Shown one piece after another: positions 16,094 through 54,425 of a DNA stretch of 64,000 bases. The stretch comes from a virus, in the IMG/VR virus record IMGVR_UViG_3300022752_004829, positions 1-64,000 of that record; one strand, given 5' to 3'. The notes under the pieces were generated by a model that was not told the origin of the DNA, made no database searches, and saw only the letters and a list, made by a program, of their open reading frames with translations. Within the stretch, counting starts at the first letter, position 1. Each line of letters begins with the position of its first letter. The position numbers and the translations under genes are program-made.

Positions 16094-16168
16094 ATGGATT
16101 ACCAAAATTTATTCTGCATATCATCTGGTATAGCAATATCTATATATTGGTGGTATAAAAATTTATGA
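16094..16168 (+). CDS. Possible 24-aa hydrophobic peptide before dCMP deaminase
   Basis: A short ORF (MDYQNLFCISSGIAISIYWW, then YKNL) with a GGAG sequence about 12 nt upstream, ending in an ATGA overlap with the dCMP deaminase start. It could be a tiny membrane peptide or a leader that couples translation of the deaminase. No homolog is known to me. Confidence 0.35.
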   Translation: MDYQNLFCISSGIAISIYWWYKNL

Positions 16169-16581
16169 AAAGGCCTTCATTTTTAGATATGGCTATTGCA
16201 ACTGCGAAAGTATGGTCCATAAGATCAGAAGATCCTTATAGGAAAGTAGGATGCTGTATCTTAAATAAGAATGGAAGAGTTCTTTCTGTCGGATATAATG
16301 GATTACCTTCAAAATTCTCCGCAGCTGGAGATTTCTGGAAAGATAGAGATTCAAGAAGAAAATACATGCTTCACGCTGAGATTAATGCTCTGAGCTTAAT
16401 TAGGGAAAGTGATGATCCTAATTTATTAGCCTGTACTCTTTTGCCTTGCCCATCTTGCGCTACCGCTATAATTGCTCATGGTATAAAAAATGTAATATAT
16501 ATTGATAATTATGAATCTGATTCAAGTTCTATTGATATATTTGAATATTATAATATAAATATTAAAAAATATGAAATTTAA
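16165..16581 (+). CDS. dCMP deaminase
   Basis: Converts dCMP to dUMP, the substrate for thymidylate synthase. The zinc site is complete: H70-A-E72 (HAEINAL) and P94-C95-P-S-C98. At 138 aa it is close to phage and bacterial deoxycytidylate deaminases; GYNGLPSKFS is a typical substrate-side motif. With ThyX (43493) and dNMP kinase (17077) it forms the dTTP supply route. It overlaps the following secreted-protein gene by 11 nt. Confidence 0.93.
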   Translation: MKRPSFLDMAIATAKVWSIRSEDPYRKVGCCILNKNGRVLSVGYNGLPSKFSAAGDFWKDRDSRRKYMLHAEINALSLIRESDDPNLLACTLLPCPSCATAIIAHGIKNVIYIDNYESDSSSIDIFEYYNINIKKYEI

Positions 16582-17076: not shown

Positions 17077-17667
17077 ATGATAGGACTAACTGGAGTTGCT
17101 AGATCTGGAAAAGATACTTTTTATTCTATATTAAAAAGATATTTTAAAGAGAAGAATATTCAATCTCAAAGGATAGCTCTTGCTGATGAGCTAAAAAAAG
17201 AACTAGGAGATTTCGTAGAAAAAAAATTTAAAATTGATCTAAACAAATGTGATGGATCAGATAAAGAATTAATTCGACCTCTTATGGTTGCATATGGAAA
17301 ATGCAGAAGAGTGCAAACTGAAGGTAAATATTGGACATCACTTGTAGATTCTAAAATTAAAGAATTAAAGAAAGATAATATAATACCTATTATCACAGAT
17401 ATAAGATATATTGAATATAAAGATGATGAATATGCGTGGCTTAAAAATCATAATGGTATCTTAATACATATCTCAAGAAAGAGAGATGATGGAAGTCTTG
17501 TGCCTCCAGCTAACATAGAAGAGAAATCTAATGATAATAAATTAAAGGCTGTTGCTGATTATTCGGTTAGTTGGGAAACTTGTCAAGATGTCAATTTTCT
17601 TTATGAACTAAGTCAAAAACATCTAAAGAATATATATGAAAAATACTTACAGGATAAAATAAAATGA
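17077..17667 (+). CDS. Deoxynucleoside monophosphate kinase
   Basis: A 196-aa P-loop kinase: Walker A GVARSGKDTFYS near the N terminus, LADELKKELGDF, and a lid-type region rich in Arg/Lys (ISRKRDDGSLVPP). This is the layout of T4 gp1-type dNMP kinases, which phosphorylate dTMP, dGMP and related monophosphates. It follows a strong AAGGAGG ribosome site and overlaps the sigma-like gene by 4 nt. It would link dCMP deaminase/ThyX output to dNTP formation. Confidence 0.82.
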   Translation: MIGLTGVARSGKDTFYSILKRYFKEKNIQSQRIALADELKKELGDFVEKKFKIDLNKCDGSDKELIRPLMVAYGKCRRVQTEGKYWTSLVDSKIKELKKDNIIPIITDIRYIEYKDDEYAWLKNHNGILIHISRKRDDGSLVPPANIEEKSNDNKLKAVADYSVSWETCQDVNFLYELSQKHLKNIYEKYLQDKIK

Positions 17668-25129: not shown

Positions 25130-25891
25130 ATGTTTAGTATCTATAGTTCGGCCTTTAATCTCATTAATAATAATTTTGATTATACTGAATCTATTAATAA
25201 TTTTTGTAGTTTTGCTGATGAAGTAGTAATAGCAGTAAATAAATCAGAGGATAATACATTTGAATCGTTAAAATCATTAAATTTTCATAATTTAAAATTA
25301 ATTAAAACAAACTTCTCTTATCAAGATCCGTTATTAGATGGTAAAATTAAAAATGAAGCATTACAGAATACGAAAGAAGAATTTAAGATTGGTCTTGATA
25401 TGGATGAATATATTCCATTATGGCAAAAAGATATCTGGACAAATTTAGCCTATCAGTTAAGATTTGATATCTATGATTGCTATATGATACCTTCATTGAA
25501 TCTCTATAAAGATAGAGACAATTATTTTTCAATAGGACATAAATGGTATTTGCACAAAGGTAATCTTTTTAGAGGAGCAGTTAATTTTGCCAAAAATAAA
25601 GACGGAACAGTTGATACCTCAAGGAGTGATACCTGTGAATTGATAGATCTAAATGGAAATTTAGTACAATCTAAAATATTTGACAAAGATATTAATACGC
25701 TAAGATCTAAAATAGCTCCATTCGTAGTTCATAAAGGATATTTAGATTTACAGAATAGAATATTAAGAAACAAAAATTTTTGGAAACAACATTGGAAAAT
25801 TGAGTCTGGAGGTTTTGAGCCAAAGCATAAAGTCCATGAATCACTGGAAGATTTTAATGAGAACTATTATAATCATTTACTAGATATATGA
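25130..25891 (+). CDS. Glycosyltransferase, GT2-like
   Basis: A 253-aa protein in the GT-A fold class: an N-terminal strand (FSIYSSAFNLINNNFDYTES), EVVIAVNKSEDNTFESL, and the DxD-like metal site in FKIGLDMDEYIPLW. It resembles 'glycosyltransferase family 2' proteins of phage and capsule loci. First gene of the glycan operon, leaderless-type start, and a 4-nt overlap with the FkbM methyltransferase gene. Donor and acceptor unknown. Confidence 0.72.
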   Translation: MFSIYSSAFNLINNNFDYTESINNFCSFADEVVIAVNKSEDNTFESLKSLNFHNLKLIKTNFSYQDPLLDGKIKNEALQNTKEEFKIGLDMDEYIPLWQKDIWTNLAYQLRFDIYDCYMIPSLNLYKDRDNYFSIGHKWYLHKGNLFRGAVNFAKNKDGTVDTSRSDTCELIDLNGNLVQSKIFDKDINTLRSKIAPFVVHKGYLDLQNRILRNKNFWKQHWKIESGGFEPKHKVHESLEDFNENYYNHLLDI

Positions 25892-26589
25892 AGAAGTTGC
25901 CTTTATTTAACGACTCAGAAATAGAAGTAGATGATATAATTTACGATCAGATGATCGATCAATGGTATAAGATGGAAGAGTGTATCGAAGAAGCAAAATC
26001 ATCTTATAATTTTTATGATGGCGGTAACTTTTTTGATATAGGTGCTTTTAATGGCATATATAGCTATATATTAGCCCCAAAAGCTAAAAATGATTTCTTT
26101 ATCTCCTTTGAGCCAGATACAAGATTTCTGGATTTAATTAAATATGCTCTAGAAAATCTATCTAGGAAATATAGTAATATTTATCATCAACTTATTGCTA
26201 CCCCAGTTGGAAACGGAGAGAATATAAGTTATAATCTACCTAATCTTGGACCAAATGGTGAAGTTGGTAATCCGTGTTTTTTTGGAGATTCAAATTCAAA
26301 AAATGGCATAAAAACCATAACAATTGATCAATACGTTAATGATACGAATATTATACCTAATATTATTAAAATTGATGTAGAGGGTGCAGAGCTTAATGTT
26401 CTTAATGGCTGTAAAGAGGTACTAACAAAATATAAACCTAAGATAATCCTTGAAATTCATAACGATTATTTAAGAAAAAATTTTAATACCGAGCCAGTAG
26501 AAGTAATAAATTTCATAGAAAAATTTAATTATAAAGAGAATTTAAATGCAAAAAATCAAAAAGTACAAAAAATATTATATTTTGAATAA
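25888..26589 (+). CDS. FkbM-family SAM methyltransferase
   Basis: A 233-aa class I methyltransferase. The SAM site reads FFDIGAFNGIYSYILA, then SFEPDTRFLDLIKYAL; IIKIDVEGAELNVLNGC is the FkbM hallmark. FkbM enzymes O-methylate sugars and polyketides; here a sugar hydroxyl of the phage-directed glycan is likely. Coupled by 4-nt and 1-nt overlaps to flanking glycosyltransferase genes. Confidence 0.85.
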   Translation: MKKLPLFNDSEIEVDDIIYDQMIDQWYKMEECIEEAKSSYNFYDGGNFFDIGAFNGIYSYILAPKAKNDFFISFEPDTRFLDLIKYALENLSRKYSNIYHQLIATPVGNGENISYNLPNLGPNGEVGNPCFFGDSNSKNGIKTITIDQYVNDTNIIPNIIKIDVEGAELNVLNGCKEVLTKYKPKIILEIHNDYLRKNFNTEPVEVINFIEKFNYKENLNAKNQKVQKILYFE

Positions 26590-27602
26590 TGAAAATAGCT
26601 TTAATAGGTAATGATTATGTTCAGCAATTTCCATTAGAAAATTATGGTGGAATTGAGACTTGTGTTGAAAATTTAGCGCAAGGTTTATACGATAATAAAA
26701 ATGATTTTTTTGTTGTTTGTCCTAAAAGAAAAAATAAGAAAGAATATCCTTTTGATATCTATGAGACAGAAGAACAGCCTACATCAATAACGAATAAGAA
26801 TAGTTCTTATTACGCCTATTCTGTAGCTAAGATTTTAAAAAACTTAGAATTTGATATAATTTGGAGTCAAAGTAATTGGAGTATAGATCCATTATTATCA
26901 TTAAAAAAACCAATTATATGTACGTTTCATGATAGTTGTGAAAAACAATATGGGTGGATGAAAGATTTAGATAGAGTAAAATATAGATTTATTTCTAATT
27001 TTCAATACAATAACTGGGTCAAAGAAGGATGGGAAAAGCAAAAAAGTTTTATGTGTTACACTGGTCTTTCTAATTCAGAATTTAAATTAAATAAATCTAA
27101 GAAAGATTATTTCTTATGGTGTGCTGGATTAAACTGGGGTCTAAACGCAAAAGGTTTAGATGTTTTTATAAAATTATCTGAAATTTTTAAGAATAAAAAT
27201 TTTATCGCATATGGGGCAGGAAATAAACAGCTGGAAGAATATCTTTTAAATAAAAATCAAACAAATTCTAATTTTTTATTTAAAGGTAAATTAAATAGAG
27301 GAGAAGAACATGAAATAGTTTTCTCGAATGCCAAAGCTTTCTTTTTCCCAACTAGACTACCAGAAGCATTCGGAAGAACAATTATCGAAAGCTTTTCTAA
27401 AGGAACACCTGTTTATGGATCAAGAAATGGCGCATCAGAAGAATTAATAGAAGATAATATAAATGGACTAAAATTTGATTTAGATAATATCAATATAAAT
27501 TTAGATATTAATTTCGATTATTCCAATATATTTAATATGTCAAAAAAATTTCATATAGGAAATGAGATAGAGAAACTTTTACAAGAATCTAGAGACTTAT
27601 GA
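26589..27602 (+). CDS. Glycosyltransferase, GT4 family
   Basis: A 337-aa GT-B enzyme. N-terminal PLENYGGIETCVENLAQGLY is the usual GT4 acceptor-domain glycine loop; the C-terminal nucleotide-sugar site is RLPEAFGRTIIESFSKGTPV with the E-x7-E pattern, followed by GSRNGASEELIEDNINGL. It transfers a sugar with retention from an NDP or GDP donor. Next gene overlaps by 4 nt. Confidence 0.85.
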   Translation: MKIALIGNDYVQQFPLENYGGIETCVENLAQGLYDNKNDFFVVCPKRKNKKEYPFDIYETEEQPTSITNKNSSYYAYSVAKILKNLEFDIIWSQSNWSIDPLLSLKKPIICTFHDSCEKQYGWMKDLDRVKYRFISNFQYNNWVKEGWEKQKSFMCYTGLSNSEFKLNKSKKDYFLWCAGLNWGLNAKGLDVFIKLSEIFKNKNFIAYGAGNKQLEEYLLNKNQTNSNFLFKGKLNRGEEHEIVFSNAKAFFFPTRLPEAFGRTIIESFSKGTPVYGSRNGASEELIEDNINGLKFDLDNININLDINFDYSNIFNMSKKFHIGNEIEKLLQESRDL

Positions 27603-28303
27603 AAATATTAGAAAATGTTACTCTTTTAACAATAATGGGCAATCCAAAGCCATCGTTCAAAGAAAACTATAATTTGATGGACAAAATAATAGATAGATCA
27701 TATAGCGAGCTAAGATTTAATAGTATAAAGATACTATCCGCGCAGGATGAAGATTTTGATTTTAAAAACAAGAATGTATCAATTATAAAAATTAATCCTA
27801 TGTCACAAGCAGGATATAATGCTTTTTGCATAAATCATTTATATAAATATGTAGACACAGACTTTGTTCTACTTTTTCAGAATGATGGGTTTATTTTAAA
27901 TCCAAAACATTGGTCAGATGACTTCTTAAATTATGATTATATCGGAGCCCCATGGCCAAGTTATGAGAATTCTAGAGTAGGAAATGGAGGATTTTCTTTG
28001 AGAAGCAAAAAGTTTCTAAATGCGGTTAAAAATTTAGTTTATATAGATGGTATAGGTTTGTCTGGAGGAGAGTTTACTCCAGAAGATCATCTGCTATGTA
28101 GACATTATTATGATTACCTAATTAAATTAGGTATAAAATTTGCACCAATTGATATAGCTATTAGATTCTCTTTTGAACAAGCAATACAAGAATATCCATT
28201 TTGGAATAATGATATGTCTTTAGGATTTCATGGTTTATTTCAAAGTGGATGGGATAATGATGAATTTAGAATTAATTTAAAAAAAGAATATAATCTATTA
28301 TGA
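27599..28303 (+). CDS. DUF5672 family protein (putative glycosyltransferase)
   Basis: A 234-aa protein with the DUF5672 signature: FVLLFQNDGFILNPKHWSDD, YDYIGAPWP, VGNGGFSLRSKKFL and LSGGEFTPEDHLLC. DUF5672 occurs in bacterial and phage polysaccharide loci and looks like a GT-A-like transferase with an ND/DxD-type metal site. Function not proven biochemically to my knowledge. Confidence 0.75.
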   Translation: MKILENVTLLTIMGNPKPSFKENYNLMDKIIDRSYSELRFNSIKILSAQDEDFDFKNKNVSIIKINPMSQAGYNAFCINHLYKYVDTDFVLLFQNDGFILNPKHWSDDFLNYDYIGAPWPSYENSRVGNGGFSLRSKKFLNAVKNLVYIDGIGLSGGEFTPEDHLLCRHYYDYLIKLGIKFAPIDIAIRFSFEQAIQEYPFWNNDMSLGFHGLFQSGWDNDEFRINLKKEYNLL

Positions 28304-29268
28304 AAGTAGCGTTTTTTAATCATCAATTATGTATAAGAGGATCTACTGTGTCTTTATATAATTATGCGTTAGCTAATCAAACACTATTAGGCAATGAATC
28401 AATTATTGTATATATGACTGATCCAGATAATCTTCCTCACACAGATTCTACAGTATTAGAAAAGTTTAATAAAACATTTAAAACTAGGGGGTTTGATAAT
28501 TGGGAAACATTAGATCAATACCTAAAAGAAGAAAAAGTTGATGTACTCTTTAAGAGTTGCGGTGGGTGGAACGATGGTAAAGTAAGTAAACATGCAAAAA
28601 CGTGCGTTCAAGCAATTTTTGATATATATCAACCACACGGAGACGTTTACTCATATCTTCATGAATATATGTCAAATAAGATGACTAGCGGAAAGGCCCC
28701 ATATGTTTATGGTATATGCGACTATCTGCCAGAGTCTAATTTAAATTTAAGAAAGATTTATAATATTCCATCTAGCGCAAAAGTCTTTGGTAGAATTGGA
28801 GCGAAAGATTCATTTAATGTAGATTGTGCAAAACATGCAATTATAGATTTAGTCAATAATACAGAAGATGTTTATTTTATGTTTTTTGGTACAGATTCTT
28901 TTTATGAACATCCTAGAATTATATACTTACCAAAGTCTCATGAATATCAAGATAAATCAAATTTTGTAAATGCTTGTGATGCAATGCTTCATGCAAGAAT
29001 AGATGGAGAAATTTTTAGTTTATCTATATCAGAATTTTTATGGTTTGATAAACCAATTATTACATATCATATAGGACATCAAACTGGACATTTTGAAATT
29101 CTAAAAGATAAAGCTATAATTTATAAAGATAAAGAATCTTTATGCTCTATTATTAAAAATTTTAATAAAAATAATTATCCTAAAAATTACTATAAATCAA
29201 TTATAATAGATAATGGATTTACGACAGAAAAAGTAATGCAAAAATTTAAAGAAGTTTATTTAAGTTAA
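28300..29268 (+). CDS. Glycosyltransferase, GT4-like
   Basis: A 322-aa GT-B-like protein. N-terminal FFNHQLCIRGSTVSLYNYAL resembles the acceptor domain of GT4 enzymes; the C-terminal half contains VFGRIGAKDSF, CDAMLHARIDGEIFSLSISE and KPIITYHIGHQTGHFEIL, equivalent to the donor-binding loop. The E-x7-E is modified. Overlaps neighbours by 1-4 nt. Confidence 0.68.
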   Translation: MKVAFFNHQLCIRGSTVSLYNYALANQTLLGNESIIVYMTDPDNLPHTDSTVLEKFNKTFKTRGFDNWETLDQYLKEEKVDVLFKSCGGWNDGKVSKHAKTCVQAIFDIYQPHGDVYSYLHEYMSNKMTSGKAPYVYGICDYLPESNLNLRKIYNIPSSAKVFGRIGAKDSFNVDCAKHAIIDLVNNTEDVYFMFFGTDSFYEHPRIIYLPKSHEYQDKSNFVNACDAMLHARIDGEIFSLSISEFLWFDKPIITYHIGHQTGHFEILKDKAIIYKDKESLCSIIKNFNKNNYPKNYYKSIIIDNGFTTEKVMQKFKEVYLS

Positions 29269-30068
29269 TGAATCTTATAATAGATAGATCAAATCGTTTA
29301 GCAAATGAATGGTGCTGGGAATGGCATTATATTATGAATATTTTTAGAGAATTAGAGAAAAATGAGTCAAATAATTATCAATATATATTTACAGATAATT
29401 TAGAAAAACTTCCAGTAGAACCAACTAAAAATACAGTAGTTTTTATTGTTTCCGATGAACATTATACTATTCCAAAATATACAGAAAAAGTTAAAGCTAT
29501 TTTTAAAAATTATGTTTTTCCAGAACAAGAGGGTTTAAGTATATACCCTATTCCCCAAGGTCATAATAAAGATTTAATTTTTTATCCTTACAAAAATATA
29601 GAAGAAAAAACCTATGATATAGGTTTTCAAGGTAATTTTCATACATCTAGACCAATAGTTATTAAAGGTATTCTTGAAGAAATAAATAAAAGAAATTTAA
29701 AATTAAATATTTTATTAAATCAAAGCTCAAATGCATTTGATTATTCTAATAATCTGTGGAATACAAAAATATCATTATCATTAGATGGCCAAGTAACACC
29801 AGAAAATTTTAGATTTTTTGAATCAAGTATCTTAGGATGCGCAATTATTGCTTCAAATAATTTACCTAAGAATTGGATATATGATCAGAATCATTATATC
29901 AAAGTAGATTGGATGAATCCCAAACAGGTTGTAGATAATATAGAAAATTTATTAAAAAACATAGATTTATTAAAAAAATTTTCTAAAGAATCTTATAATG
30001 CATGGAATAATATCTATAATCCTAAAAACGTATCGGACTATATAAAGAATAAATTAAATCAATTATGA
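29268..30068 (+). CDS. Putative glycosyltransferase (exostosin-like), paralog 1
   Basis: A 266-aa protein. KISLSLDGQVTPENFRFFES followed by GCAIIASNNLPKNW matches the donor-binding end of exostosin-like/GT-B transferases. It shares order and motifs (DEHY-x-IP near the N terminus; (C)LDG-x-TPE-x-(Y/F)RF-x-ES) with the protein at 30636-31463, so the two are paralogs, separated by a methyltransferase gene. Confidence 0.6.
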   Translation: MNLIIDRSNRLANEWCWEWHYIMNIFRELEKNESNNYQYIFTDNLEKLPVEPTKNTVVFIVSDEHYTIPKYTEKVKAIFKNYVFPEQEGLSIYPIPQGHNKDLIFYPYKNIEEKTYDIGFQGNFHTSRPIVIKGILEEINKRNLKLNILLNQSSNAFDYSNNLWNTKISLSLDGQVTPENFRFFESSILGCAIIASNNLPKNWIYDQNHYIKVDWMNPKQVVDNIENLLKNIDLLKKFSKESYNAWNNIYNPKNVSDYIKNKLNQL

Positions 30069-30664
30069 AAAATAAAATAAAAGATATATTATTAGAATAT
30101 GGACATAAAGGTATTTTTACACACGATGGACATTTTCAATGTTTAACAGATAAAGCAGCAAGATCATCTCAAGTTGGGCATTCATATGATCATGTATACC
30201 CAGATTTGTTAAATAAATTTCTTGGATTAGAAAAATTTACTATGTTTGAAATCGGTATTCATAAAGGATATAGCTTAGAAATGTGGACAAAAATATTTCC
30301 TCAAGCAGATATTTATGGATTGGATATTGATCATTCTTTAATCGATCCTTATGCTAACCTAAATCAAAAGAATATTACTATCCTCCCTCAAGCAAGTCAA
30401 ATAGACACAAATATTTTAAACTTAATACCCAATATGGATCTAATAATAGATGATGCATCTCATAGACCCGATCTAACTATGCGCTCATGGGAAATTTTTA
30501 AACATAAATTAAATAAAAATGGACTATATATTATTGAAGATGTACCAGATACAATTTTCAATGAACAAGTTTTCCCGAAATCTTTTAAAGATAATTTTAA
30601 ATTAATAGATTTAAGATCTGTAAAAAACAGAAGCGATGACATTATTTTATATTATGAGAATTAA
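30065..30664 (+). CDS. Class I SAM methyltransferase (sugar O-methyltransferase-like)
   Basis: A 199-aa methyltransferase: MFEIGIHKGYSLEMWTKIFP is the SAM loop, IYGLDIDHSLIDP the acidic loop, and MDLIIDDASHRPDLTMRSWE the catalytic/metal DD-x-SH region of the Methyltransf_24/macrolide sugar O-methyltransferase group. Probably methylates a sugar in the glycan. It overlaps the next gene by 29 nt. Confidence 0.72.
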   Translation: MKNKIKDILLEYGHKGIFTHDGHFQCLTDKAARSSQVGHSYDHVYPDLLNKFLGLEKFTMFEIGIHKGYSLEMWTKIFPQADIYGLDIDHSLIDPYANLNQKNITILPQASQIDTNILNLIPNMDLIIDDASHRPDLTMRSWEIFKHKLNKNGLYIIEDVPDTIFNEQVFPKSFKDNFKLIDLRSVKNRSDDIILYYEN

Positions 30665-31463
30665 ATACTCAATCCAAGAAAACCCAAAAATTACAAGCCA
30701 ATTTAATAATTTTCCATTTGGATGTGGAGAAATAAAATACTTCATAGATATATGTAGAGAAATTCAATCTATAAAAAATATAGATAATACAGTTTGGTAT
30801 GTTGACCCAGATTATAACTATCAAAATCCACCAGATGGTTTATGTAAAGAAGATATAGTCTTTTATAAAGGAGACGAACATTATAGAATTCCTTCTTGGT
30901 ATAAAGACTGCAAATTAATTTTAAAACATACAGTTAGAAATAATTTTCCAGAAAATATTATACATATACCATTTTTATATACCTCAGATTTTATAGAATT
31001 CCCATATGTTCCATTTAATGATAGAAAAATAGATATATTTTTTACTGGAACTTGTTGGCCAGAAACAAACAGAAGATTTATTCTAGAATATCTAAAGTCA
31101 AAATTAAAAAAAGTAAATTTTATTCTTGGTGATTTTATTAATCCGAAAGAATATTATTATATTTTAGCTAATACTAAAATCTCTTTATGCTTAGATGGAA
31201 AATGGACTCCAGAGTGCTATAGATTTTCAGAATCCGTACAAGCAGGCTCATTAGCTTTCTCATCTAATTTATCCTATTCAAGACTATTTGATAATTGTCC
31301 ATATATAGAAACTAACTGGTCAAATCTTGATCAAGTCATAGATCAAATATATTTTTATTTAAATAATAAAAATTCTGAAGAAATTTCAATTCAGGCTCAT
31401 AACTTTTGGTTGAATAATTGGCATCCTAAAAAATGGGCAGAATTAATTCTAGCTAGGATTTAA
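30636..31463 (+). CDS. Putative glycosyltransferase (exostosin-like), paralog 2
   Basis: A 275-aa paralog of the protein at 29268-30068: GDEHYRIPSWY, ISLCLDGKWTPECYRFSESV and the ending WHPKKWAELILARI align with it. The N terminus as given overlaps the methyltransferase by 29 nt; an ATG at 30654 (MRIKYSIQEN) would shorten the overlap and is equally plausible. Confidence 0.6.
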   Translation: MTLFYIMRIKYSIQENPKITSQFNNFPFGCGEIKYFIDICREIQSIKNIDNTVWYVDPDYNYQNPPDGLCKEDIVFYKGDEHYRIPSWYKDCKLILKHTVRNNFPENIIHIPFLYTSDFIEFPYVPFNDRKIDIFFTGTCWPETNRRFILEYLKSKLKKVNFILGDFINPKEYYYILANTKISLCLDGKWTPECYRFSESVQAGSLAFSSNLSYSRLFDNCPYIETNWSNLDQVIDQIYFYLNNKNSEEISIQAHNFWLNNWHPKKWAELILARI

Positions 31464-32413
31464 TGATAATAGCCAAGACACCATTTAGGATTTCACTGGC
31501 TGGAGGATCTACAGATCTTGAATCTTTTTTAGATTTATATGGGCAAGGGTCTGTCATAAGTTTTCCATGTAATCTTTATACCTATATATCAATTTTTGAT
31601 GATAAATTAGGTTTTAATTCTTATGATAAGAAATATATAGTTGCATATTCTAAAAGAGAAGCGACCAATCAAGTAGATAAGATAAAGAATGATATTGCAA
31701 GAATTATTCTAAAGAAATATAATATCGCTCCAATTAATGCTACATTTAATTCTGATATATTTAGTTCAAACTGTGGGCTGGCTTCATCTAGTTCTTATAC
31801 ATTATCATTTTTAAATGCTATTTTAAAATTCAAAGGATTAGATTACTCTAATATAGATTTATGTAAAGAGGCTTTAGCCATAGAAAGAGAATTCAACCCA
31901 TTAACTGGACAGCAAGATATTTTTGGATGTGGTATAGGTGGATTCAAAAAGATGGATTTTTTTAAAGAGAAGAATCCAACATTTAAATATCTCAACGCAG
32001 ATATGTTTAATAGATATGATTTTAGTTTAATATATACAGGGGTATTGAGATCTTCAACTAAAATATTAAAAGAAATAGACCCAAGGAAATCATTTTCTTT
32101 ACTTAATTTGGTACAGGAAATGGAAATAGCCATAGAAAAAAATAGACATAAAGATTTTATCTCTATAATAAAAGAGGGTTGGGTAAAAAAGAAAGAATCA
32201 AATCCAAATATTGTATCTAATAAAATAATTAAAAAAATTGATGAAGACCTATCAAATGATAAATCTATTTTAGCTCATAGATTATGTGGAGCAGGAAATG
32301 GTGGATATTTTTTAGCTATAAAAGAGAAAAGATCAAAAATAAATTTGAATACTAAGTCTAATATTATTAATATACTTTATGATAAAGAAGGACCAAGGTG
32401 CTACAGGATTTAA
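31463..32413 (+). CDS. hddA: GHMP kinase, D-glycero-D-manno-heptose 7-phosphate kinase-like
   Basis: Phosphorylates a sugar phosphate at the anomeric carbon. The GHMP motifs are AKTPFRISLAGGSTDLESFL (motif 1), CGLASSSSYTLSFLNAI (motif 2, ATP loop) and HRLCGAGNGGYFLAI (motif 3). The N terminus (PFR(I/V)S-x-x-GGGTD) and the adjacent gmhA and nucleotidyltransferase genes point to HddA, which makes heptose 1,7-bisphosphate in GDP-heptose pathways; fucose or mannose kinases of the same family are alternatives. 316 aa, close to HddA (about 340). Overlaps gmhA by 35 nt. Confidence 0.8.
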   Translation: MIIAKTPFRISLAGGSTDLESFLDLYGQGSVISFPCNLYTYISIFDDKLGFNSYDKKYIVAYSKREATNQVDKIKNDIARIILKKYNIAPINATFNSDIFSSNCGLASSSSYTLSFLNAILKFKGLDYSNIDLCKEALAIEREFNPLTGQQDIFGCGIGGFKKMDFFKEKNPTFKYLNADMFNRYDFSLIYTGVLRSSTKILKEIDPRKSFSLLNLVQEMEIAIEKNRHKDFISIIKEGWVKKKESNPNIVSNKIIKKIDEDLSNDKSILAHRLCGAGNGGYFLAIKEKRSKINLNTKSNIINILYDKEGPRCYRI

Positions 32414-32927
32414 AAATAGCATTGATTTGATTAGTAGACTTATAGCTAAAATAACTAATGCAGATTTAGTTAAATTCAGAGAAATAATATTTGATTATGA
32501 TAATATTATTATTATAGGAAATGGCGGAAGCAATTCAATATCTAGTCATATAGCTGTAGATTATAATAAATTTCTTAAGAAGAGAACATTAGCATTTACT
32601 GATCCATCAATGCTTAGTGCATACTTTAATGATTATGGTTTTGAAAAAGTATACGTTAAGTTTATCGAGCAGAATTTAACCAAAAAAACATTGGTGATAT
32701 TAATATCTTCTTCTGGAAATTCTTTAAATATTTTAGAATGTGCTAATTTCTGCGAAAAAAATAAAATAGGATTCTGCTCTTTTACTGGTTTTAATAAAGA
32801 TAATAAACTTAAAGTAAAATCAGAAAAATCTAAGAATTGCAAATTTAATTATTGGGTCGAATCAAAAAGCTATGGAGTAGTAGAAAATTGTCATCAAATA
32901 TTTTTGCATGCGGTTGTCGTAAATTAA
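32379..32927 (+). CDS. gmhA: Sedoheptulose-7-phosphate isomerase (SIS domain)
   Basis: Converts sedoheptulose 7-phosphate to D-glycero-D-manno-heptose 7-phosphate. The SIS fold shows IIIGNGGSNSISSHIAVDYN, LVILISSSGNSLNILECANF (phosphate loop SSSGNS) and VVENCHQIFLHAVV, whose Glu and His match the GmhA active site. 182 aa, near the usual 190. It overlaps the kinase gene by 35 nt, and the next gene follows after 1 nt. Confidence 0.85.
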   Translation: MIKKDQGATGFKNSIDLISRLIAKITNADLVKFREIIFDYDNIIIIGNGGSNSISSHIAVDYNKFLKKRTLAFTDPSMLSAYFNDYGFEKVYVKFIEQNLTKKTLVILISSSGNSLNILECANFCEKNKIGFCSFTGFNKDNKLKVKSEKSKNCKFNYWVESKSYGVVENCHQIFLHAVVVN

Positions 32928-32928
32928 T

Positions 32929-34257
32929 ATGAGATATTGCTTAGATTTAGATAATACAATTTGTATAACCGAGAAGAGTGATTATAATAACTCGAAATTA
33001 ATAGAAAAAGCTAAGACCTTAATTAATAAACTATACGATAATGGAAATTATATTATTATAAATACAGCAAGAGGTGCGTCTTCTGGTATAGATTGGACGG
33101 ATTTTACTAAGAAACAATTAATAGATTGGGGAATTAAATATCATGAGCTTATTATGAATGCAAAGCCTAATGCAGATATATTCGTTGATGATAAAAATAT
33201 TTCTATAGAAGAATGGTATAATTCCGATAAATCTCCAAAAGGATTTATAGCTGGCACATTCGATCTTATACATAATGGATACATTAAACTTTTTGAATTT
33301 GCAAAACAACATTGTAATAAACTAATTGTAGCAATTCATGAAGATCCATCTTTAGAAAAGAAAGAGAAAAGCAAGCCTATTCATAGTATAGAAGAAAGAA
33401 TTGAGATTTTAAAGTCAATTAAGTATATAGACGATATCTTAATATATCAAACAGAAGAAGATTTATACGAATTAATAAAATTAATGAAACCTAGCATAAG
33501 ATTTTTGGATGAAACATATAAAAATAAGAAAATAACTGGAGAAAATCTATGCCCAATTATGTTTCATGAGAGAAAACATAATTATTCTTATACAAATTTA
33601 AAAAATAAAATTTTTGGTGATGAAGCTTTATCAAATAAAATTAATCAAATTATTTTAGACTTAGTAGAAAAAGATAATGCTAATATTGATCTTCCGAATC
33701 CATTACCTAATGAAATTTTAATAAATTCTTTTATAGATACGGCAATTTCTAATATTACCATTAAAAATGGTTTAGTATTAGAATTTGGAGTTTATCAAGG
33801 AAGAACGATAAACTATATTGCTTCAAAATTCCCAGATAATATAATATATGGATTTGATTCATTCGAAGGTCTTCCAGAGCAATGGAATGATAAGAATCCA
33901 AAAGGAATATATACATTGGATGGTAACTTGCCTAAAGTCGAAAAAAACGTTAAATTAATTAAAGGATGGTTTAACGAAACTTTACCTACTTTTGTAGCGG
34001 AGCATAAAGACCCAATTTCCCTACTGCACGTAGATTGTGATATTTATTCTTCTACAGTATGCGTTTTAGAATCATTAAAAGATCAAATTATTGATGGAAC
34101 AGTAGTTATATTCGATGAAATTTGGAAATATCCAAATTATAAAGAACACGAGATAAAGGCTTTTGCAGAATTTCTTTTGAAATATGATTTTAAATATGAA
34201 TGCATCAGAACACTTAAATCAAGATACGCAAAAGCTATATTTATATTAAAAAAATGA
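32929..34257 (+). CDS. Three-domain fusion: HAD phosphatase, cytidylyltransferase-like, SAM methyltransferase
   Basis: A 442-aa protein. Residues 1-97 form a small HAD phosphatase of the EcbF/BcbF capsule type (LDLDNTI 5-11, INTARG 44-49, DIFVDDKN 83-90). Residues 104-225 are a nucleotidyltransferase (GTFDLIHNGYIKLF 109-122; HSIEERIEIL 152-161), with H-x-G-Y instead of H-x-G-H, a variant I recall in a bacterial cytidylyltransferase subgroup. Residues 260-442 are a TylF/macrocin-type O-methyltransferase (LEFGVYQGRTI, DSFEGLPEQW, VDCDIYSST). With HddA and GmhA it could complete NDP-heptose synthesis: the HAD would remove the 7-phosphate and the transferase add the nucleotide. Substrates are inferred. 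Confidence 0.8.
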   Translation: MRYCLDLDNTICITEKSDYNNSKLIEKAKTLINKLYDNGNYIIINTARGASSGIDWTDFTKKQLIDWGIKYHELIMNAKPNADIFVDDKNISIEEWYNSDKSPKGFIAGTFDLIHNGYIKLFEFAKQHCNKLIVAIHEDPSLEKKEKSKPIHSIEERIEILKSIKYIDDILIYQTEEDLYELIKLMKPSIRFLDETYKNKKITGENLCPIMFHERKHNYSYTNLKNKIFGDEALSNKINQIILDLVEKDNANIDLPNPLPNEILINSFIDTAISNITIKNGLVLEFGVYQGRTINYIASKFPDNIIYGFDSFEGLPEQWNDKNPKGIYTLDGNLPKVEKNVKLIKGWFNETLPTFVAEHKDPISLLHVDCDIYSSTVCVLESLKDQIIDGTVVIFDEIWKYPNYKEHEIKAFAEFLLKYDFKYECIRTLKSRYAKAIFILKK

Positions 34258-35144
34258 AAACTAAAGTAATCGTAACAGGCGGATGTGGCTTTATAGGAAG
34301 TCATGTAGTAGATCTATTAATAGAAAAGAATTTCGATGTGCATGTAGTAGATAATATTTCTACTTCAAAAAATAATAAATATATACATCAAGATGCTGTG
34401 TACTTGAACCTAGATATAACTCAAAATGTTGAAAAATTAAAAGAAGTATTTAACGGAGCTAAGTATATATTTCATTTAGCAGCTTTTGCGAGAGTAATTC
34501 CATCTATACACGATCCAGTTACTTTTCATAATATAAACGTTAATGGATCTTTAAATGTTTTCTTAGCGGCGAAAGAAGTTGGGGCAAAAATTATATTTTC
34601 TTCTTCATCATCAGTATATGGAAATCCAATAGAATTACCAGTAAAAGAAACTCATAGACTAGACCCAATGTGTCCATATGCACTTCATAAGCAAATAGGC
34701 GAAGAATATCTTCAATTATTTAATAAAATCTATTCTCTAAATAGTGTTTCTTTACGATATTTTAATGTCTTTGGAGAGAGAGCCCCAAGAGAAGGAGCTT
34801 ATGTTCCAGTAGTTGGAATATTTTTAAGGCAAAAAGAAGCTGGTGAATCACTAACTATAGTTGGTGATGGACTCCAAAATAGAGACTTCGTTCACGCAAA
34901 AGATGTAGCTAGAGCAAATTTAGCCGCAGCTTTAGATGAAAGAAGCGGGGCATTTGCATATAATGTTGGTTCTGGTAAATCATTATCGGTAATAGAAATA
35001 GCAGATAAAATATCAAAAAATATAGTCCATATACCAGAAAGATTTGAATACAAAAGCGCAAGAAGCGATGTTACTAAAATTAAAAAAGAATTAGGCTGGG
35101 AATATGAAATTGAATTAATGCAATGGCTTGAGAAATACGTATGA
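34254..35144 (+). CDS. NAD-dependent nucleotide-sugar epimerase/dehydratase (extended SDR)
   Basis: A 296-aa SDR: VTGGCGFIGSHVVDLLIEKN (NAD site), SSSSSVYGNPIELPV, catalytic Y-x3-K in PYALHKQIGEEY, RYFNVFGERAP and RDFVHAKDVARANL. The pattern is that of GalE-like UDP-sugar 4-epimerases; other NDP-sugar reactions (dehydratase, reductase) cannot be excluded. Overlaps the methyltransferase fusion and the GT17 gene by 4 nt each. Confidence 0.82.
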   Translation: MKTKVIVTGGCGFIGSHVVDLLIEKNFDVHVVDNISTSKNNKYIHQDAVYLNLDITQNVEKLKEVFNGAKYIFHLAAFARVIPSIHDPVTFHNINVNGSLNVFLAAKEVGAKIIFSSSSSVYGNPIELPVKETHRLDPMCPYALHKQIGEEYLQLFNKIYSLNSVSLRYFNVFGERAPREGAYVPVVGIFLRQKEAGESLTIVGDGLQNRDFVHAKDVARANLAAALDERSGAFAYNVGSGKSLSVIEIADKISKNIVHIPERFEYKSARSDVTKIKKELGWEYEIELMQWLEKYV

Positions 35145-35914
35145 AAATAATTGATTGTTTTCTTTTCTCAAATGAATTAGATATACTTGAGATTCGTCTA
35201 AATGAATTAAATGATAAAGTAGATAAATTCCTTATCTGTGAATCAAAAGAGACTTTTGCAGGAAATTCGAAAGAACTTATATATGAAAAAAATAAAAATA
35301 GATTCTATCAATTTAATGAAAAGATTATTCATATAATAGTTGATAAATTTCCGCAAAATATTTCAGCCGAAAATAGAGAATATTTTAATAGAAATTATAT
35401 TTTAAATGGTATACCAAACTCATTTACTGATGAAGATATAATTATATTCTCAGATGTAGATGAAATTCCTAAAATAAACAATCTCAATAAATCCTTAGAT
35501 CTTTCTGTTTTTAGGCAAGATATGTATTATTTTAATTTCAATACTAAATTTATAGAACCAAATGATCACGCTAATTGGCATGGCTCAATAGCATTCAAAG
35601 CTAAATTTAAAAGTCAAGTAAATTTACAAAACCTTAGATTTAATAGATACAATATAAATACAGTAGTACAAGATGGTGGATGGCATTTTTCTTACTTTAG
35701 TAATCCACAGAATGTTATCAATAAAATTAAAAATGGAGGGCATACGGAAATGTTTGATTTAAGTCTAAACGAGAATATAATTGCGGAAAGAATTGAGAAA
35801 AGAATTGATGTTCTTGGCAGAACTGGTTATATATTAAAAGGAATAGAAAATAATAAAGATTTACCAAAATATGTCTTAGACAATAAAGAAAAGTATAGAC
35901 ATCTATTTTACTAA
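35141..35914 (+). CDS. GT17-family glycosyltransferase (beta-1,4-GlcNAc transferase-like)
   Basis: A 257-aa protein with the GT17 signature: IIDCFLFSNELDILEIRLNE, DKFLICESKETFAG, IIIFSDVDEIPK (DxD-type metal site), and GGWHFSYFSNPQNVINKIKN. GT17 is best known from eukaryotic N-glycan GlcNAc-transferase III; bacterial and phage members occur in polysaccharide loci. Acceptor unknown. Confidence 0.8.
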   Translation: MKIIDCFLFSNELDILEIRLNELNDKVDKFLICESKETFAGNSKELIYEKNKNRFYQFNEKIIHIIVDKFPQNISAENREYFNRNYILNGIPNSFTDEDIIIFSDVDEIPKINNLNKSLDLSVFRQDMYYFNFNTKFIEPNDHANWHGSIAFKAKFKSQVNLQNLRFNRYNINTVVQDGGWHFSYFSNPQNVINKIKNGGHTEMFDLSLNENIIAERIEKRIDVLGRTGYILKGIENNKDLPKYVLDNKEKYRHLFY

Positions 35915-35935
35915 TAGATATTATATTAAATAAAA

Positions 35936-36934
35936 ATGAATAAAAAACTTTTAATAACTGGCGGTGCAGGAATGATAGGATCGGTATTAGCTAGATTTTT
36001 TATTGATAAAAAATATCAAGTTATTGTTCTGGACGATTTAAGCGGTGGGTTTATAGAGAATATTCCCCAACAAGCAAAATTTTATTTAGGTAATATTTGT
36101 GACCAAAATTTTATTAATAAAATCTTTGAAATTGAAAAACCACATTTTGTAATTCATTGCGCGGCTTATGCAGCTGAAATACTTAGCCCTTTTATAAGAA
36201 ACTATAATTATCAAAATAATCTAATTGGATCAATAAATATTATCAATGCATGCATTAATAATGATGTTGACAAAATTATTAATTTTTCTAGTTTTGCTAC
36301 TTATGGAGAAGGTAAACCGCCATTCAAGGAATCAGATCAAAGAGATCCGAAAGATTGTTATGGAATAGCTAAATTAGCCGTAGAGATGGACTTGAAAGAG
36401 GCGCATGAGCATTTTGGATTAAGGTATTCGACAATACTCCCGCATAATGTAGTTTCTAAATATCAAAATTATTGGGATAGGTATAGGAATGCAATAGCTA
36501 TATGGATTAGACAATGTTCACTTGGCGAAGATATAACTATATATGGAGATGGTTTACAAACAAGAGCTTTTTCTGATTGTAAATATTTATGCGAACCAAT
36601 TGAAAAATTACTTTATTCTTTTGATAATAATTTTTACAATATTGGATCAGATAATCCAATTACAATTAAAGACGCAGCGGAGTTAGTATTAAAAGTGGGA
36701 ACAGAGTTTGGGTTCAATAAATCTAAGTTAGTTTTTCTTGAGAAAAGGAAAGAAGTAATCCATGCATATTGCGACCATGAAAAAGCCAAAAAAGATTTAA
36801 ATTTCGATGATCATACCAATTTAGAATCTCTGATAAAGGATATGTATAGTCATTATCTCATTTTTCCAGAAAAAAAAGTTGAATATATGAAATATGAAAT
36901 AGAAAAAAATATGTATAGTTTTTGGAAAAAATAA
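35936..36934 (+). CDS. NAD-dependent nucleotide-sugar epimerase/dehydratase
   Basis: A second extended SDR, 332 aa: ITGGAGMIGSVLARFFIDKK, HCAAYAAEILSPF, SSFATYGEGKPPF, catalytic Y-x3-K in DCYGIAKLAVEMD and ITIYGDGLQTRAFSD. Resembles NDP-hexose 4-epimerases; the exact substrate is unknown. A 21-nt gap separates it from the GT17 gene. The C terminus extends past the fold with a charged helix. Confidence 0.8.
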   Translation: MNKKLLITGGAGMIGSVLARFFIDKKYQVIVLDDLSGGFIENIPQQAKFYLGNICDQNFINKIFEIEKPHFVIHCAAYAAEILSPFIRNYNYQNNLIGSINIINACINNDVDKIINFSSFATYGEGKPPFKESDQRDPKDCYGIAKLAVEMDLKEAHEHFGLRYSTILPHNVVSKYQNYWDRYRNAIAIWIRQCSLGEDITIYGDGLQTRAFSDCKYLCEPIEKLLYSFDNNFYNIGSDNPITIKDAAELVLKVGTEFGFNKSKLVFLEKRKEVIHAYCDHEKAKKDLNFDDHTNLESLIKDMYSHYLIFPEKKVEYMKYEIEKNMYSFWKK

Positions 36935-36935
36935 T

Positions 36936-37586
36936 ATGAAATTTGAAAATACAGATCTTGTCATTGCTAGATACAATGAAGATGTAGATTGGATTAAATC
37001 TGAATATTCTAGGATTTTTATTTATAATAAAGGACAACATCTAAACAGAAAGGATGAAATATCTTTACCTAATATAGGAAGAGAATCTCAAACATATTTG
37101 CATCATATTGTAGAAAATTTTAATAACTTAAATAATATAACAATATTTACCCAAGGAAATCCAGATGTTCATTATTTTCATAATAGACATTATAATGAAG
37201 AATATTTTTTTGAAATGAAAAAACAAGCAGAAATATATGGCTATTCTTTAAATAAAGATTACTATCCAAATGTTATGTTTGGTGGATACAAAGATGGAAA
37301 TTATAGAGATCATCACCCAACGCTTAGAGATCCAAATATACCGTTATCTAGATTTGCGACTATAGGTAAATTTCACGAATATATTTTTGGAAAATCATTT
37401 GATCAGTATAAATGGTATGCGAATGGAATATTCGCTATATCGAAAGAAAAAATTTTATCAAGAAGCATAGATTTTTATAAAAAAATTCTACTAGACGAAG
37501 AACAATTTTATATATCAGGAGAACTAGGCTCTTACTTAGAGAGGACTTGGACCTTAATATTCAATATTCCAGACAATGAAGTATGA
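36936..37586 (+). CDS. DUF3431 family protein
   Basis: A 216-aa protein of the DUF3431 type: LVIARYNEDVDWIKSEYSRI, IYNKG, LPNIGRESQTYLHHIVENFN, TIFTQGNP and the C-terminal ANGIFAISKEKILSR. DUF3431 proteins are uncharacterised and look GT-A-like; they occur in fungi, bacteria and phages beside glycosyltransferases. It overlaps the glf gene by 11 nt. Confidence 0.75.
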   Translation: MKFENTDLVIARYNEDVDWIKSEYSRIFIYNKGQHLNRKDEISLPNIGRESQTYLHHIVENFNNLNNITIFTQGNPDVHYFHNRHYNEEYFFEMKKQAEIYGYSLNKDYYPNVMFGGYKDGNYRDHHPTLRDPNIPLSRFATIGKFHEYIFGKSFDQYKWYANGIFAISKEKILSRSIDFYKKILLDEEQFYISGELGSYLERTWTLIFNIPDNEV

Positions 37587-38667
37587 TTTTCTAATAGTTG
37601 GATGTGGTCTATTTGGAGTAACATTCGCCCAGCAAGCAAAAGAAAAGGGCAAGAGATCCTTAATCATTGATTCCAGAAACCATATTGGTGGAAATGTTTA
37701 CACAGAGAATAAAGATGGTATTAATATTCATACTTATGGCGCACATATATTTCATACGAATAATGATGAAATATGGAATTATATAAATAAATTTACAAAA
37801 TTTAACCACTTTGTCAACAGGCCTAAAGTAAACTACAAAGATAAAATTTATTCATTTCCAATTAACTTATTTACCTTATATCAACTCTGGGGAGTAAAAA
37901 ATCCAGAAGAAGCCAAAATAAAATTAGAGTCTGTAAAAGTAAAGATTCAAGAGCCAAAGAATCTCGAAGAATGGATACTATCGCAAGTCGGAGAAGAGAT
38001 TTATTATACCTTTATTTATGGATACACAAAAAAGCAATGGAATAAAGAACCCAAAGATCTTCCTTCCTTTATTATAAAAAGATTACCGATTAGATTGAAT
38101 TTTGATGATAATTACTTTTTTGATAAATATCAAGGTATTCCAATTGGAGGATATACAAAAATTATAGAAAATATGACAGAAGGAATAGAAGTAATATTAA
38201 ATGAAAATTATTTTGATAGGAGAGATTACTGGGATCAAAAAGCTAAAAAAATTATTTTTACTGGTAAGATAGATGAATTTTATAATTATAAATATGGAGA
38301 ATTAGAGTATAGATCTTTAAAATTTGAGGAAATTAGATTAGATATAAAAGACTATCAAGGTAATTCATGCGTTAACTATACAGACGAAAATATCCCATAC
38401 ACAAGAATAATAGAACATAAACATTTTGAGTTCGGACAACAAGACCTGACCTATATCACTAAAGAATATCCAGCAAATTATATTAAAGAATTAAATACGC
38501 CATACTATCCGATAAATAATGATGTAAATAATGATTTATATAAAAAATATAGACAAATGAGCGAAAAGGAGAATAATATATTATTCGGAGGTAGATTAGC
38601 TGAATATAGATATTATGATATGCACCAAATCATCGGATCAGCATTACAAAAAAGCAAAATCATATAA
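37576..38667 (+). CDS. glf: UDP-galactopyranose mutase
   Basis: A 363-aa flavoenzyme interconverting UDP-galactopyranose and UDP-galactofuranose. The FAD motif GCGLFGVTFAQQAKEKG is at the N terminus, followed by RNHIGGNVYTE, HTYGAHIFHT, FVNRPKVNY, GYTKKQWNKEP and PIGGYTKIIENM, all family hallmarks. Length is normal. It indicates galactofuranose in the glycan. It abuts the GMD-like gene with a 1-nt overlap. Confidence 0.95.
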   Translation: MKYDFLIVGCGLFGVTFAQQAKEKGKRSLIIDSRNHIGGNVYTENKDGINIHTYGAHIFHTNNDEIWNYINKFTKFNHFVNRPKVNYKDKIYSFPINLFTLYQLWGVKNPEEAKIKLESVKVKIQEPKNLEEWILSQVGEEIYYTFIYGYTKKQWNKEPKDLPSFIIKRLPIRLNFDDNYFFDKYQGIPIGGYTKIIENMTEGIEVILNENYFDRRDYWDQKAKKIIFTGKIDEFYNYKYGELEYRSLKFEEIRLDIKDYQGNSCVNYTDENIPYTRIIEHKHFEFGQQDLTYITKEYPANYIKELNTPYYPINNDVNNDLYKKYRQMSEKENNILFGGRLAEYRYYDMHQIIGSALQKSKII

Positions 38668-39812
38668 TGAATATAAATCTTATGGAAACATATCATGGTA
38701 AAAAAATAGACACAGCCAATATCTTAAATATTGAAGATGCGAGTAGACTTATAAAAGGAAGAAAAACTGTAGTTATAACTGGAGTCACAGGTCAAGATGG
38801 TAGTCATATGGCCGACTTTCTTTTAAAGAATACCGATTTACTAATTTTTGGAGGAGTAAGAAGATTAAGCGTATATAATCATGAGAATATTAAGCATATT
38901 CAATCTGATAGATTCCATTTAATTAATTTTGATTTAACAGATTCTCATGCTATAGCGCGTACAGTAGAAAAACTGCAGCCAGATTATTTTATTAATTTTG
39001 CAGCTCAAAGTTTTGTGGCTAGTAGTTGGGACTTTGCAAAACAAACATGGGCGACAAATTCTACCAGTGTTTTAGATATACTTGAAGCGATTAGACTTTA
39101 TAAACCATCTTGTAGATTATATCAAGCAGGATCTAGCGAAGAATTTGGTAATGTATTGTATAGCCCACAAGATGAGAAGCACCCACTAAGGCCAAGGAGT
39201 CCATATGGAGCAAGCAAAGCGGCCTCTAGGCAATTAATTAAAGTATATAGAGACTCTTACAATCTTTACGCAATTCAAGGCTGGTTATTTAATCACGAAG
39301 GGACAAGAAGAGGTGAAGAATTTGTTACGAGAAAAATTACCAAGAATATAGCAAGAATACATAATGCTTTAAAAAATAATCAAGAATTTAAGCCTATGGA
39401 GCTTGGAAATATGGAAGCAAAAAGAGATTGGAGTGATGCAGAAGATTTCATAGAAGGAGTTTGGAGAATGTTAAATCAAGATGAATACAATACAGAATAT
39501 AATGGAATACCAGAGGAATATGTATTTTCATCTAATGAAACTCATACTATTAAGGAATTTGTAGAAAAAGCTTTTAGTGTGGCTGGTATTAAAGGAAGTT
39601 GGATAGGTGAAAATGAGCATACTATGTATATATCAAATGATAATAAAATCCTAGTGCAAGTTAATCCTAAATTCTATAGACCAGCCGAAGTAGAATTATT
39701 GTTGGGAAATTCGAATAAAGCAAGAAAAGAGCTTAATTGGAAACCTAAAATTTCATTTGACAATCTTGTTGAAAAGATGGTAGAATGTGATATTGAAAAA
39801 TATAAATCATAA
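38667..39812 (+). CDS. gmd: GDP-mannose 4,6-dehydratase family (possibly GDP-heptose dehydratase)
   Basis: A 381-aa SDR dehydratase: TGVTGQDGSHMADFLL (40-55), FNFAAQSFV-like (INFAAQSFVASSW), SSEEFG (catalytic Ser/Glu), Y-x3-K in PYGASKAAS, NHEGTRRGEEFVTRKIT, all GMD hallmarks. It makes a GDP-4-keto-6-deoxy sugar. In Campylobacter and Yersinia heptose capsules a GMD homolog acts on GDP-manno-heptose; since heptose genes are in the same operon, that substrate is worth considering, but GDP-mannose cannot be excluded. It has a ~35-aa N-terminal extension; Met6 is an alternative start. Confidence 0.88.
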   Translation: MNINLMETYHGKKIDTANILNIEDASRLIKGRKTVVITGVTGQDGSHMADFLLKNTDLLIFGGVRRLSVYNHENIKHIQSDRFHLINFDLTDSHAIARTVEKLQPDYFINFAAQSFVASSWDFAKQTWATNSTSVLDILEAIRLYKPSCRLYQAGSSEEFGNVLYSPQDEKHPLRPRSPYGASKAASRQLIKVYRDSYNLYAIQGWLFNHEGTRRGEEFVTRKITKNIARIHNALKNNQEFKPMELGNMEAKRDWSDAEDFIEGVWRMLNQDEYNTEYNGIPEEYVFSSNETHTIKEFVEKAFSVAGIKGSWIGENEHTMYISNDNKILVQVNPKFYRPAEVELLLGNSNKARKELNWKPKISFDNLVEKMVECDIEKYKS

Positions 39813-53246: not shown

Positions 53247-54425
53247 ATGCATATATTAGAACAATACGCATTAAATTGTGGGGTATCTATATCCAAGCCA
53301 TTTATAAATGAAGAATTTTTTCCATTACCATTTGAAAAGTATATAACCCTACATCCAAAAGGAAAATTCCATTCCAGAGAATATGATTATTGGGAGGAAG
53401 TAACTACTAATCTTTATCCGATCCTAAATAAGCATAATATTAAAATTGTTCAAATTGGAAATAAAGAGGATAATCTTATCCCCTTCTGTTATTCAATAAA
53501 CGGTCAGACTAACTTGAATAATTTAGCTTATATAATAAAGAATTCGCTTTTGCATCTAGGAATAGATAGCCTTCCAATTCATTTAGCTTCTGCTTATGAT
53601 AAAAAAATAGTTGGATTATATTGCAACATGTATCCAAATCAATCTAAACCATATTGGTCAGATTCAAATGATTACGAGATTTTATTTGCAGATCTAAAAG
53701 ATAAAAAGCCTTCATACGCAGCTATAGAAAATCCAAAAACAATAAATACCATAAAACCAGAATCTATAGTTAACGCAGTTTTAAAAAAATTAAATATAAA
53801 TGAAAAAATTACTAATAAAACAATTTATAATGGTGAATCAAGTCATTTAAGATCTATTGAGATAATACCAGATCATGTTCCAAACTTGTCTTCTTTTAAT
53901 ATAAATATTGCTAATATAAGAATGGATTATCATTTTGACGAACAATTTTTATTTAATATTCTTAGCGTATATCAAAGCAATATATTAACAAATAAAGCTA
54001 TTAATATAAATCAACTAATTAAATTTAAGAAGAATATATTAAATATTTTCTTTATCATAGATAGTGAATCAAATTTTGATATTAAATTTATAAAGAATTT
54101 AAAAGCAAATGGAATAAAATTCTCCATTATATCTTTTATATCAGAAGAAAAGATTGAAAAATTTAAAATTGATACAATGGATTTCTCTAACATTATAATT
54201 AAGAATTTAGAAAAAAACAAAGATACAATAAAATCATTCTATAAAGATAATCTTAAGTTTAAATCAAGTAAGCTTCTCCTAAGTCAGGGTAAAATGTACC
54301 CATCTTTTGGAAGCTTTAAATCAAATATACATTATAAAGAATCCCTCCATGAATATTTTGATTTTGATAATAAAGACGATCTTTATAAAGAATTGGAAAA
54401 TTTTTATATTTTTAGCATTGACTAA
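53247..54425 (+). CDS. C-terminal half of a GT9-like glycosyltransferase plus unknown domain
   Basis: A 392-aa protein in the same reading frame as the upstream gene, three codons after its TAA. Residues 1-180 match the donor-binding half of heptosyltransferases: YITLHPKGKFHSREYDYWEE, IVQIGN, NLNNLAYIIKNSLLHLGIDS and LPIHLASAYDKKIVGLYCNM. The last ~200 residues (after KLNINEKITNKTI) are Lys/Ile/Asn-rich with no recognised domain. No Shine-Dalgarno precedes the ATG. It may be made by readthrough or reinitiation, or be a broken gene. Confidence 0.65.
   Translation: MHILEQYALNCGVSISKPFINEEFFPLPFEKYITLHPKGKFHSREYDYWEEVTTNLYPILNKHNIKIVQIGNKEDNLIPFCYSINGQTNLNNLAYIIKNSLLHLGIDSLPIHLASAYDKKIVGLYCNMYPNQSKPYWSDSNDYEILFADLKDKKPSYAAIENPKTINTIKPESIVNAVLKKLNINEKITNKTIYNGESSHLRSIEIIPDHVPNLSSFNINIANIRMDYHFDEQFLFNILSVYQSNILTNKAININQLIKFKKNILNIFFIIDSESNFDIKFIKNLKANGIKFSIISFISEEKIEKFKIDTMDFSNIIIKNLEKNKDTIKSFYKDNLKFKSSKLLLSQGKMYPSFGSFKSNIHYKESLHEYFDFDNKDDLYKELENFYIFSID

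Follow-up and report, generated by a model that had tools for sequence, protein, structure and literature searches.

A phage gene cassette, probably for a nucleotide-activated heptose, with a HAD phosphatase fused to a nucleotidyltransferase

Which activated sugar is made by a compact group of phage sugar genes, and do these genes encode all steps of the route? The locus lies in the window, i.e., the whole 64-kb stretch of DNA that was analyzed, which is part of an 83,358-bp IMG/VR virus record. Tail genes and genes for DNA polymerase III alpha, a DnaB-like helicase, a primase, a RecA/UvsX-like protein and ribonucleotide reductase indicate a phage setting. The initial annotation had proposed that three consecutive genes encode the isomerase, C1 kinase, bisphosphatase and nucleotidyltransferase that are needed to turn sedoheptulose 7-phosphate into an NDP-heptose. 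The three genes are indeed consecutive and on one strand (Table 1), and their family matches are far beyond chance. The kinase and isomerase genes share 35 nt, and the gap between the isomerase gene and the third gene is 1 nt. The unit is larger than proposed, as the start of a GalE-type epimerase gene lies 4 nt inside the end of the third gene and this fourth gene completes the cassette. The tight packing suggests co-transcription.

Table 1. Sugar and glycan genes and protein domains in the 64-kb window.
Feature	Position	Strand	Details
Upstream glycan genes	25130..31463	+	glycosyltransferase families, FkbM and Methyltransf_24 methyltransferases
Kinase ORF	31463-32413	+	316 aa, intact
Isomerase ORF	32379-32927	+	182 aa, intact
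HAD/nucleotidyltransferase fusion ORF	32929-34257	+	442 aa, intact
HAD phosphatase domain, EcbF/BcbF/AfhF type	32929..33225	+	aa 1-99
Cytidylyltransferase-fold domain	33238..33618	+	aa 104-230; HNGY for HxGH; R215-x-H-x-Y-S-x-T
TylF-like SAM methyltransferase domain	33715..34239	+	about aa 263-437; TylF/Methyltransf_24 match at about aa 281-437, 1.5e-13
Extended SDR, GalE-type NDP-sugar epimerase	34254..35144	+	conserved fourth cassette gene
Downstream glycan genes	35141..39812	+	GT17, SDR, DUF3431, UDP-galactopyranose mutase, GDP-mannose 4,6-dehydratase-like
GT9 (heptosyltransferase family) protein	53247..54425	+	PF01075 E 3.3e-9

The first protein is a GHMP sugar C1-kinase. The family model search gave matches to GHMP_kinases_N (2.4e-8) and to the HddA model NF049969 (1.4e-24), and the motifs GLASSSSY, GQQD and CGAGNGG are all intact. 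Family profiles were built from viral contigs and Synechococcus phage SynMITS9220M01, and the best match of the kinase profile was the solved HddA of C. jejuni (1.3e-30). HddA is thus the nearest characterized relative, in line with the proposed HddA-like kinase, at a score of 87.2 bits, which is below the NF049969 equivalog cut-off of 600 bits.

The second protein is a SIS-fold aldose/ketose-phosphate isomerase, and the proposed likeness to GmhA was confirmed by the match to TIGR00441 (1.1e-12) and by the family profile, which reached GmhA structures at 3e-17. The predicted model had a pLDDT of 93.8. Its 33 best PDB matches were 31 GmhA chains and two DiaA chains, with TM-scores of about 0.8 to most GmhA structures, and arabinose-5-phosphate isomerase did not occur among these 33. 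The score of 48.3 bits was below the TIGR00441 cut-off of 209.45 bits. H57, D61, E169, H172 and H177 were invariant in 28 aligned members of the cassette family; these invariant active-site positions make a DiaA-like, non-catalytic SIS protein unlikely. The catalytic residues of GmhA, Glu65 and His180 in E. coli numbering, do not both recur: the His is invariant in the cassette isomerases, and the Glu is replaced by Asp in the window protein and in 92 of 96 scorable relatives, which is a conservative change. One Gln is also changed to Glu. In Azospirillum, an isomerase of the Asp type adjoins an HldE-like kinase/adenylyltransferase, and, thus, a heptose pathway can accommodate the change from Glu to Asp.

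The third gene had been described as encoding a HAD phosphatase and a nucleotidyltransferase in one polypeptide. Both domains were matched, and a third one, a TylF-type methyltransferase domain, had been missed. In the AlphaFold model the first two domains have mostly high confidence, and the methyltransferase domain is poorly modeled, with low confidence. The HAD motifs DLDNT, T46, K79 and DD87-88 are intact; D6, D8, K79, D87 and D88 were invariant in 44 aligned fusions, and T46 nearly so. The match was to the EcbF/BcbF type (E 7e-5), and in the search for a GmhB/HAD-IIIA match, none of the NCBIfam models hit at E 0.01 was a GmhB model. The HAD family profile reached a solved phage HAD phosphatase at 5.5e-18, and the closest solved relative, 9iqw, is described as the D-arabinose 1,5-diphosphate phosphatase AfhF of phage HY126. 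This likeness supports a phosphatase role of the HAD domain, without fixing the sugar.

The nucleotidyltransferase domain matched CTP_transf_like (1.8e-14) and RfaE domain II (9.5e-19), and its 67.7 bits were below the cut-off of 181.5 bits for the HldE C-domain TIGR02199. Its profile reached glycerol-3-phosphate cytidylyltransferase at 5e-19, and the best structural matches of the fusion model were CTP:glycerol-3-phosphate cytidylyltransferases; of the bacterial sugar enzymes, HldC came next. The HxGH motif of the cytidylyltransferase superfamily is replaced by HNGY in the window and by HxGY in 42 of the 44 aligned fusions. The STTR5 motif of NTP-promiscuous heptose nucleotidyltransferases, given in a commentary as (F/L)xxGRSTT (PMC11461863), is likewise absent; the window has RKHNYSYT, and its R-x-H-x-Y-S-x-T aligns with RTEGISTT of the glycerol-3-phosphate cytidylyltransferase TagD. 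Because an arginine stands where the heptose enzymes have F or L, CTP is presumably the nucleotide used. A suggested link to innate-immune signaling by ADP-heptose found no support, as the signature resembles that of CTP enzymes.

A wider scan with the HAD/nucleotidyltransferase query confirmed 413 candidates and gave the 80 best loci. The order kinase, isomerase, HAD/nucleotidyltransferase, epimerase was complete in at least 79 of the loci retrieved overall, 72 of which were from IMG/VR contigs. These viral loci comprise at least 62 distinct fusion sequences, which is the safer count because some loci share a contig. The cassette and its neighbors were also observed in hosts (L018 and L151-L152), and it was found in two metagenome bins, of an Acidimicrobiaceae member and of a 'Mycobacterium', both of which may be misbinned. 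In the tree the window is on a long branch near L134, L144, L145 and L140, in an unsure position. Among the relatives examined, the methyltransferase fusion occurs in the window alone. In L140 a separate TylF-type gene directly follows the HAD/nucleotidyltransferase gene, and in L145 one lies some kilobases away. In about ten further relatives, kinase and isomerase are separated by a different methyltransferase-like gene. An assignment of this extra gene as HddC was rejected, since a search with one of them identified a methyltransferase, and the rest begin similarly and have a SAM-binding-like motif.

Taken together, we estimate a probability of roughly 0.6 that the cassette serves to make a nucleotide-activated heptose from sedoheptulose 7-phosphate; the GalE-type SDR would then epimerize this heptose, and the fused TylF domain of this phage would probably O-methylate it. 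Neighboring glycosyltransferases would attach the sugar to a surface glycan or another glycoconjugate, and the GT9 protein is a possible user of the product. The most likely product is a CDP- or other NDP-heptose, epimerized and perhaps O-methylated. The main grounds for this reading are the families of isomerase and kinase, with their GmhA structural matches and HddA match, the Azospirillum pairing, and a direct fusion of a GmhA-like isomerase to an HxGY nucleotidyltransferase in a Pacearchaeota MAG (L032, 5497-6429), with an HddA-like kinase nearby. It is supported further by the conserved gene order, by the HddA- and GmhA-type genes that lie close together in Caulobacter phage Cr30, and by the methyltransferase genes inside the cassette of several relatives and after the HAD/nucleotidyltransferase gene in L140. 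By analogy, AfhF, named as a sugar 1,5-bisphosphate phosphatase, would perform the same kind of chemistry, and the GT9 protein gives mild support. The heptose reading is opposed by the non-GmhB phosphatase, by HxGY in nearly all fusions, and by the combination of a GHMP kinase with an HldE/TagD-fold nucleotidyltransferase, which fits neither textbook route. Because kinase, isomerase and nucleotidyltransferase all score far below the curated NCBIfam cut-offs and conserved sites differ, we can only infer the seven-carbon specificity. The initial four-activity proposal is therefore a sound reading of a conserved unit, except that the HAD domain is not of the GmhB type and its closest solved relative acts on arabinose 1,5-bisphosphate.

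Comparison with known systems revealed that the unusual enzyme fusion is new, and not the pathway. Contrary to the initial statement, the complete route is not without precedent in described phages. Heptose-related LPS genes of phage SynMITS9220M01 (MT408532) were reported in 2020 (PMC7378029); its four genes match those of the window in kind and order, with 44-49% identity for the first three. Its HAD-nucleotidyltransferase, annotated as hypothetical, has only 250 aa and, unlike that of the window, no methyltransferase domain. In addition, viral NDP-heptose enzymes were functional according to commentaries on Tang et al. (Science 2024), by which the phosphatase was absent in viruses (PMC11461863, PMC11573728). 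As far as these commentaries describe the survey, a good candidate for the missing phosphatase is the HAD domain that shares a polypeptide with the nucleotidyltransferase; the cassette differs from known ones in that such a candidate is present, is not of the GmhB type, and is part of a fusion.

The heptose system of Aneurinibacillus and C. jejuni has the GmhA-like isomerase and the HddA-like GHMP kinase in common with the cassette, in which no PF00483 HddC was found and which has a TagD/HldE-fold nucleotidyltransferase and a non-GmhB phosphatase. GDP-heptose formation by HddC was rejected, as the scan of genes from the sugar cluster yielded no PF00483 match. The ADP-heptose pathway (GmhA, HldE, GmhB, HldD) shares the isomerase and a distant relative of the HldE C-domain. 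The window differs from it, and from the viral enzymes of 2024 as the commentaries present them, by a GHMP instead of a PfkB kinase, the absence of STTR5 and the presence of a candidate phosphatase. The sugar cluster of the cyanophages P-SSM2 and S-CAM shares a cytidylyltransferase-like gene and a homologous HAD; it differs by a PfkB-type kinase (P-SSM2), an HxGH nucleotidyltransferase and a cupin, and no GmhA-type isomerase was seen nearby. A more specific proposal, put forward tentatively and held to be possible rather than probable, is a largely viral route to CDP-heptose. Its kinase would be of the HddA type, its phosphatase, not of the GmhB type, would be joined in one protein to the HxGY cytidylyltransferase, and it would have a dedicated epimerase and, in the phage studied here, an O-methyltransferase as part of the fusion. 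Such a route would supply the bisphosphatase step that the commentaries report as missing from viral NDP-heptose pathways.

Another NDP-aldose, i.e., a hexose or another heptose epimer made by an isomerase and a kinase of shifted specificity, is unlikely. The consistent change from Glu to Asp, the HxGY motif and the low scores to all characterized enzymes would fit such a shift, but the best matches of kinase and isomerase are still heptose enzymes, and the Asp-type isomerase of Azospirillum again stands beside an HldE-like protein.

A serious, though likewise improbable, alternative is a nucleotide-activated pentose, D-arabinose, made from ribulose 5-phosphate by the same four steps, possibly for DNA hypermodification as in Mosigvirus. 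RB69-type phages, the home of the AfhF arabinose module, modify cytosine in DNA (PMC6024577, PMC13390438). In its chemical logic the module equals the cassette, its HAD phosphatase is a homologue, AfhF being the closest solved relative, and the RB69-type isomerase/NTP-transferase/HAD genes lie just before UvsX, as the sugar genes of the window stop directly before the RecA/UvsX-like gene. However, the module draws its isomerase, kinase and nucleotidyltransferase from different families. The genes around AfhF in HY126 encode a SIS isomerase, an NTP_transferase protein of 562 aa, the HAD itself and a member of the thymidylate synthase family. This isomerase is a SIS protein of another type (PF01380, with a GVGKNANIA motif and an annotation as D-arabinose-5-phosphate isomerase), the nucleotidyltransferase is PF00483, and a GHMP kinase is absent; neither this isomerase type nor a PF00483 NTP-transferase was found in the cassette. 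Searched against the HY126 proteins, only the HAD profile matched clearly, and the kinase, isomerase and nucleotidyltransferase profiles gave no match; in a 12-protein set, one isomerase of a related phage matched the SIS profile very weakly (2e-5). Furthermore, no PF00303 dCMP-modifying synthase was found among the window genes scanned, only ThyX, and a glycan as destination of the sugar agrees with the GT9 protein, the UDP-galactopyranose mutase and the numerous other glycan genes.

The least probable explanation by far is that the phage carries a standard surface-glycan cassette of the host type as cargo, without a role specific to the phage. These four genes are chromosomal in all four genomes of one Prochlorococcus genus and in one further family member, but hosts rarely have them (5 of 300 family genomes), and in viral contigs they are frequent and kept intact.

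Several further features were observed. The window has an adenylosuccinate-synthetase-like gene (11527-12519, minus strand) and an IMP dehydrogenase/GMP reductase-like gene (14909-16015, minus strand). The PurZ model matches at 2.6e-28 and PurA models score better; purine DNA modification is one possible role that the gene families suggest. A dCMP deaminase gene (16165-16581) and a deoxynucleotide monophosphate kinase-like gene (17077-17667) are also present; such genes are frequent in phages with modified nucleotides. A phage-encoded tmRNA (13011-13399, plus strand; Rfam 111.9 bits) has the unusual predicted tag AKTAKYKGHISARVSLVEETVSVA. The HAD domain was matched by 380 phage records, many of which are labeled 'phosphoheptose isomerase'. 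In PHROG 1238, L002:6086-6430 and many phage records, this label sits on homologues of the HAD domain and not on SIS isomerases; P-SSM2 PSSM2_311 has the HAD motifs and no SIS match. In the cellular clusters L055, L059 and L061, the same HAD family is paired with GmhA-like isomerases, beside genes that resemble the NeuB and NeuA types when read by eye.

If the heptose reading is true, a phage-encoded route to an activated rare sugar is widespread among aquatic phages, and this route includes the phosphatase step that, by the commentaries, a recent survey found lacking in viruses. The phage HAD proteins that are often labeled 'phosphoheptose isomerase' would then obtain their likely real role, namely that of sugar-bisphosphate phosphatases.
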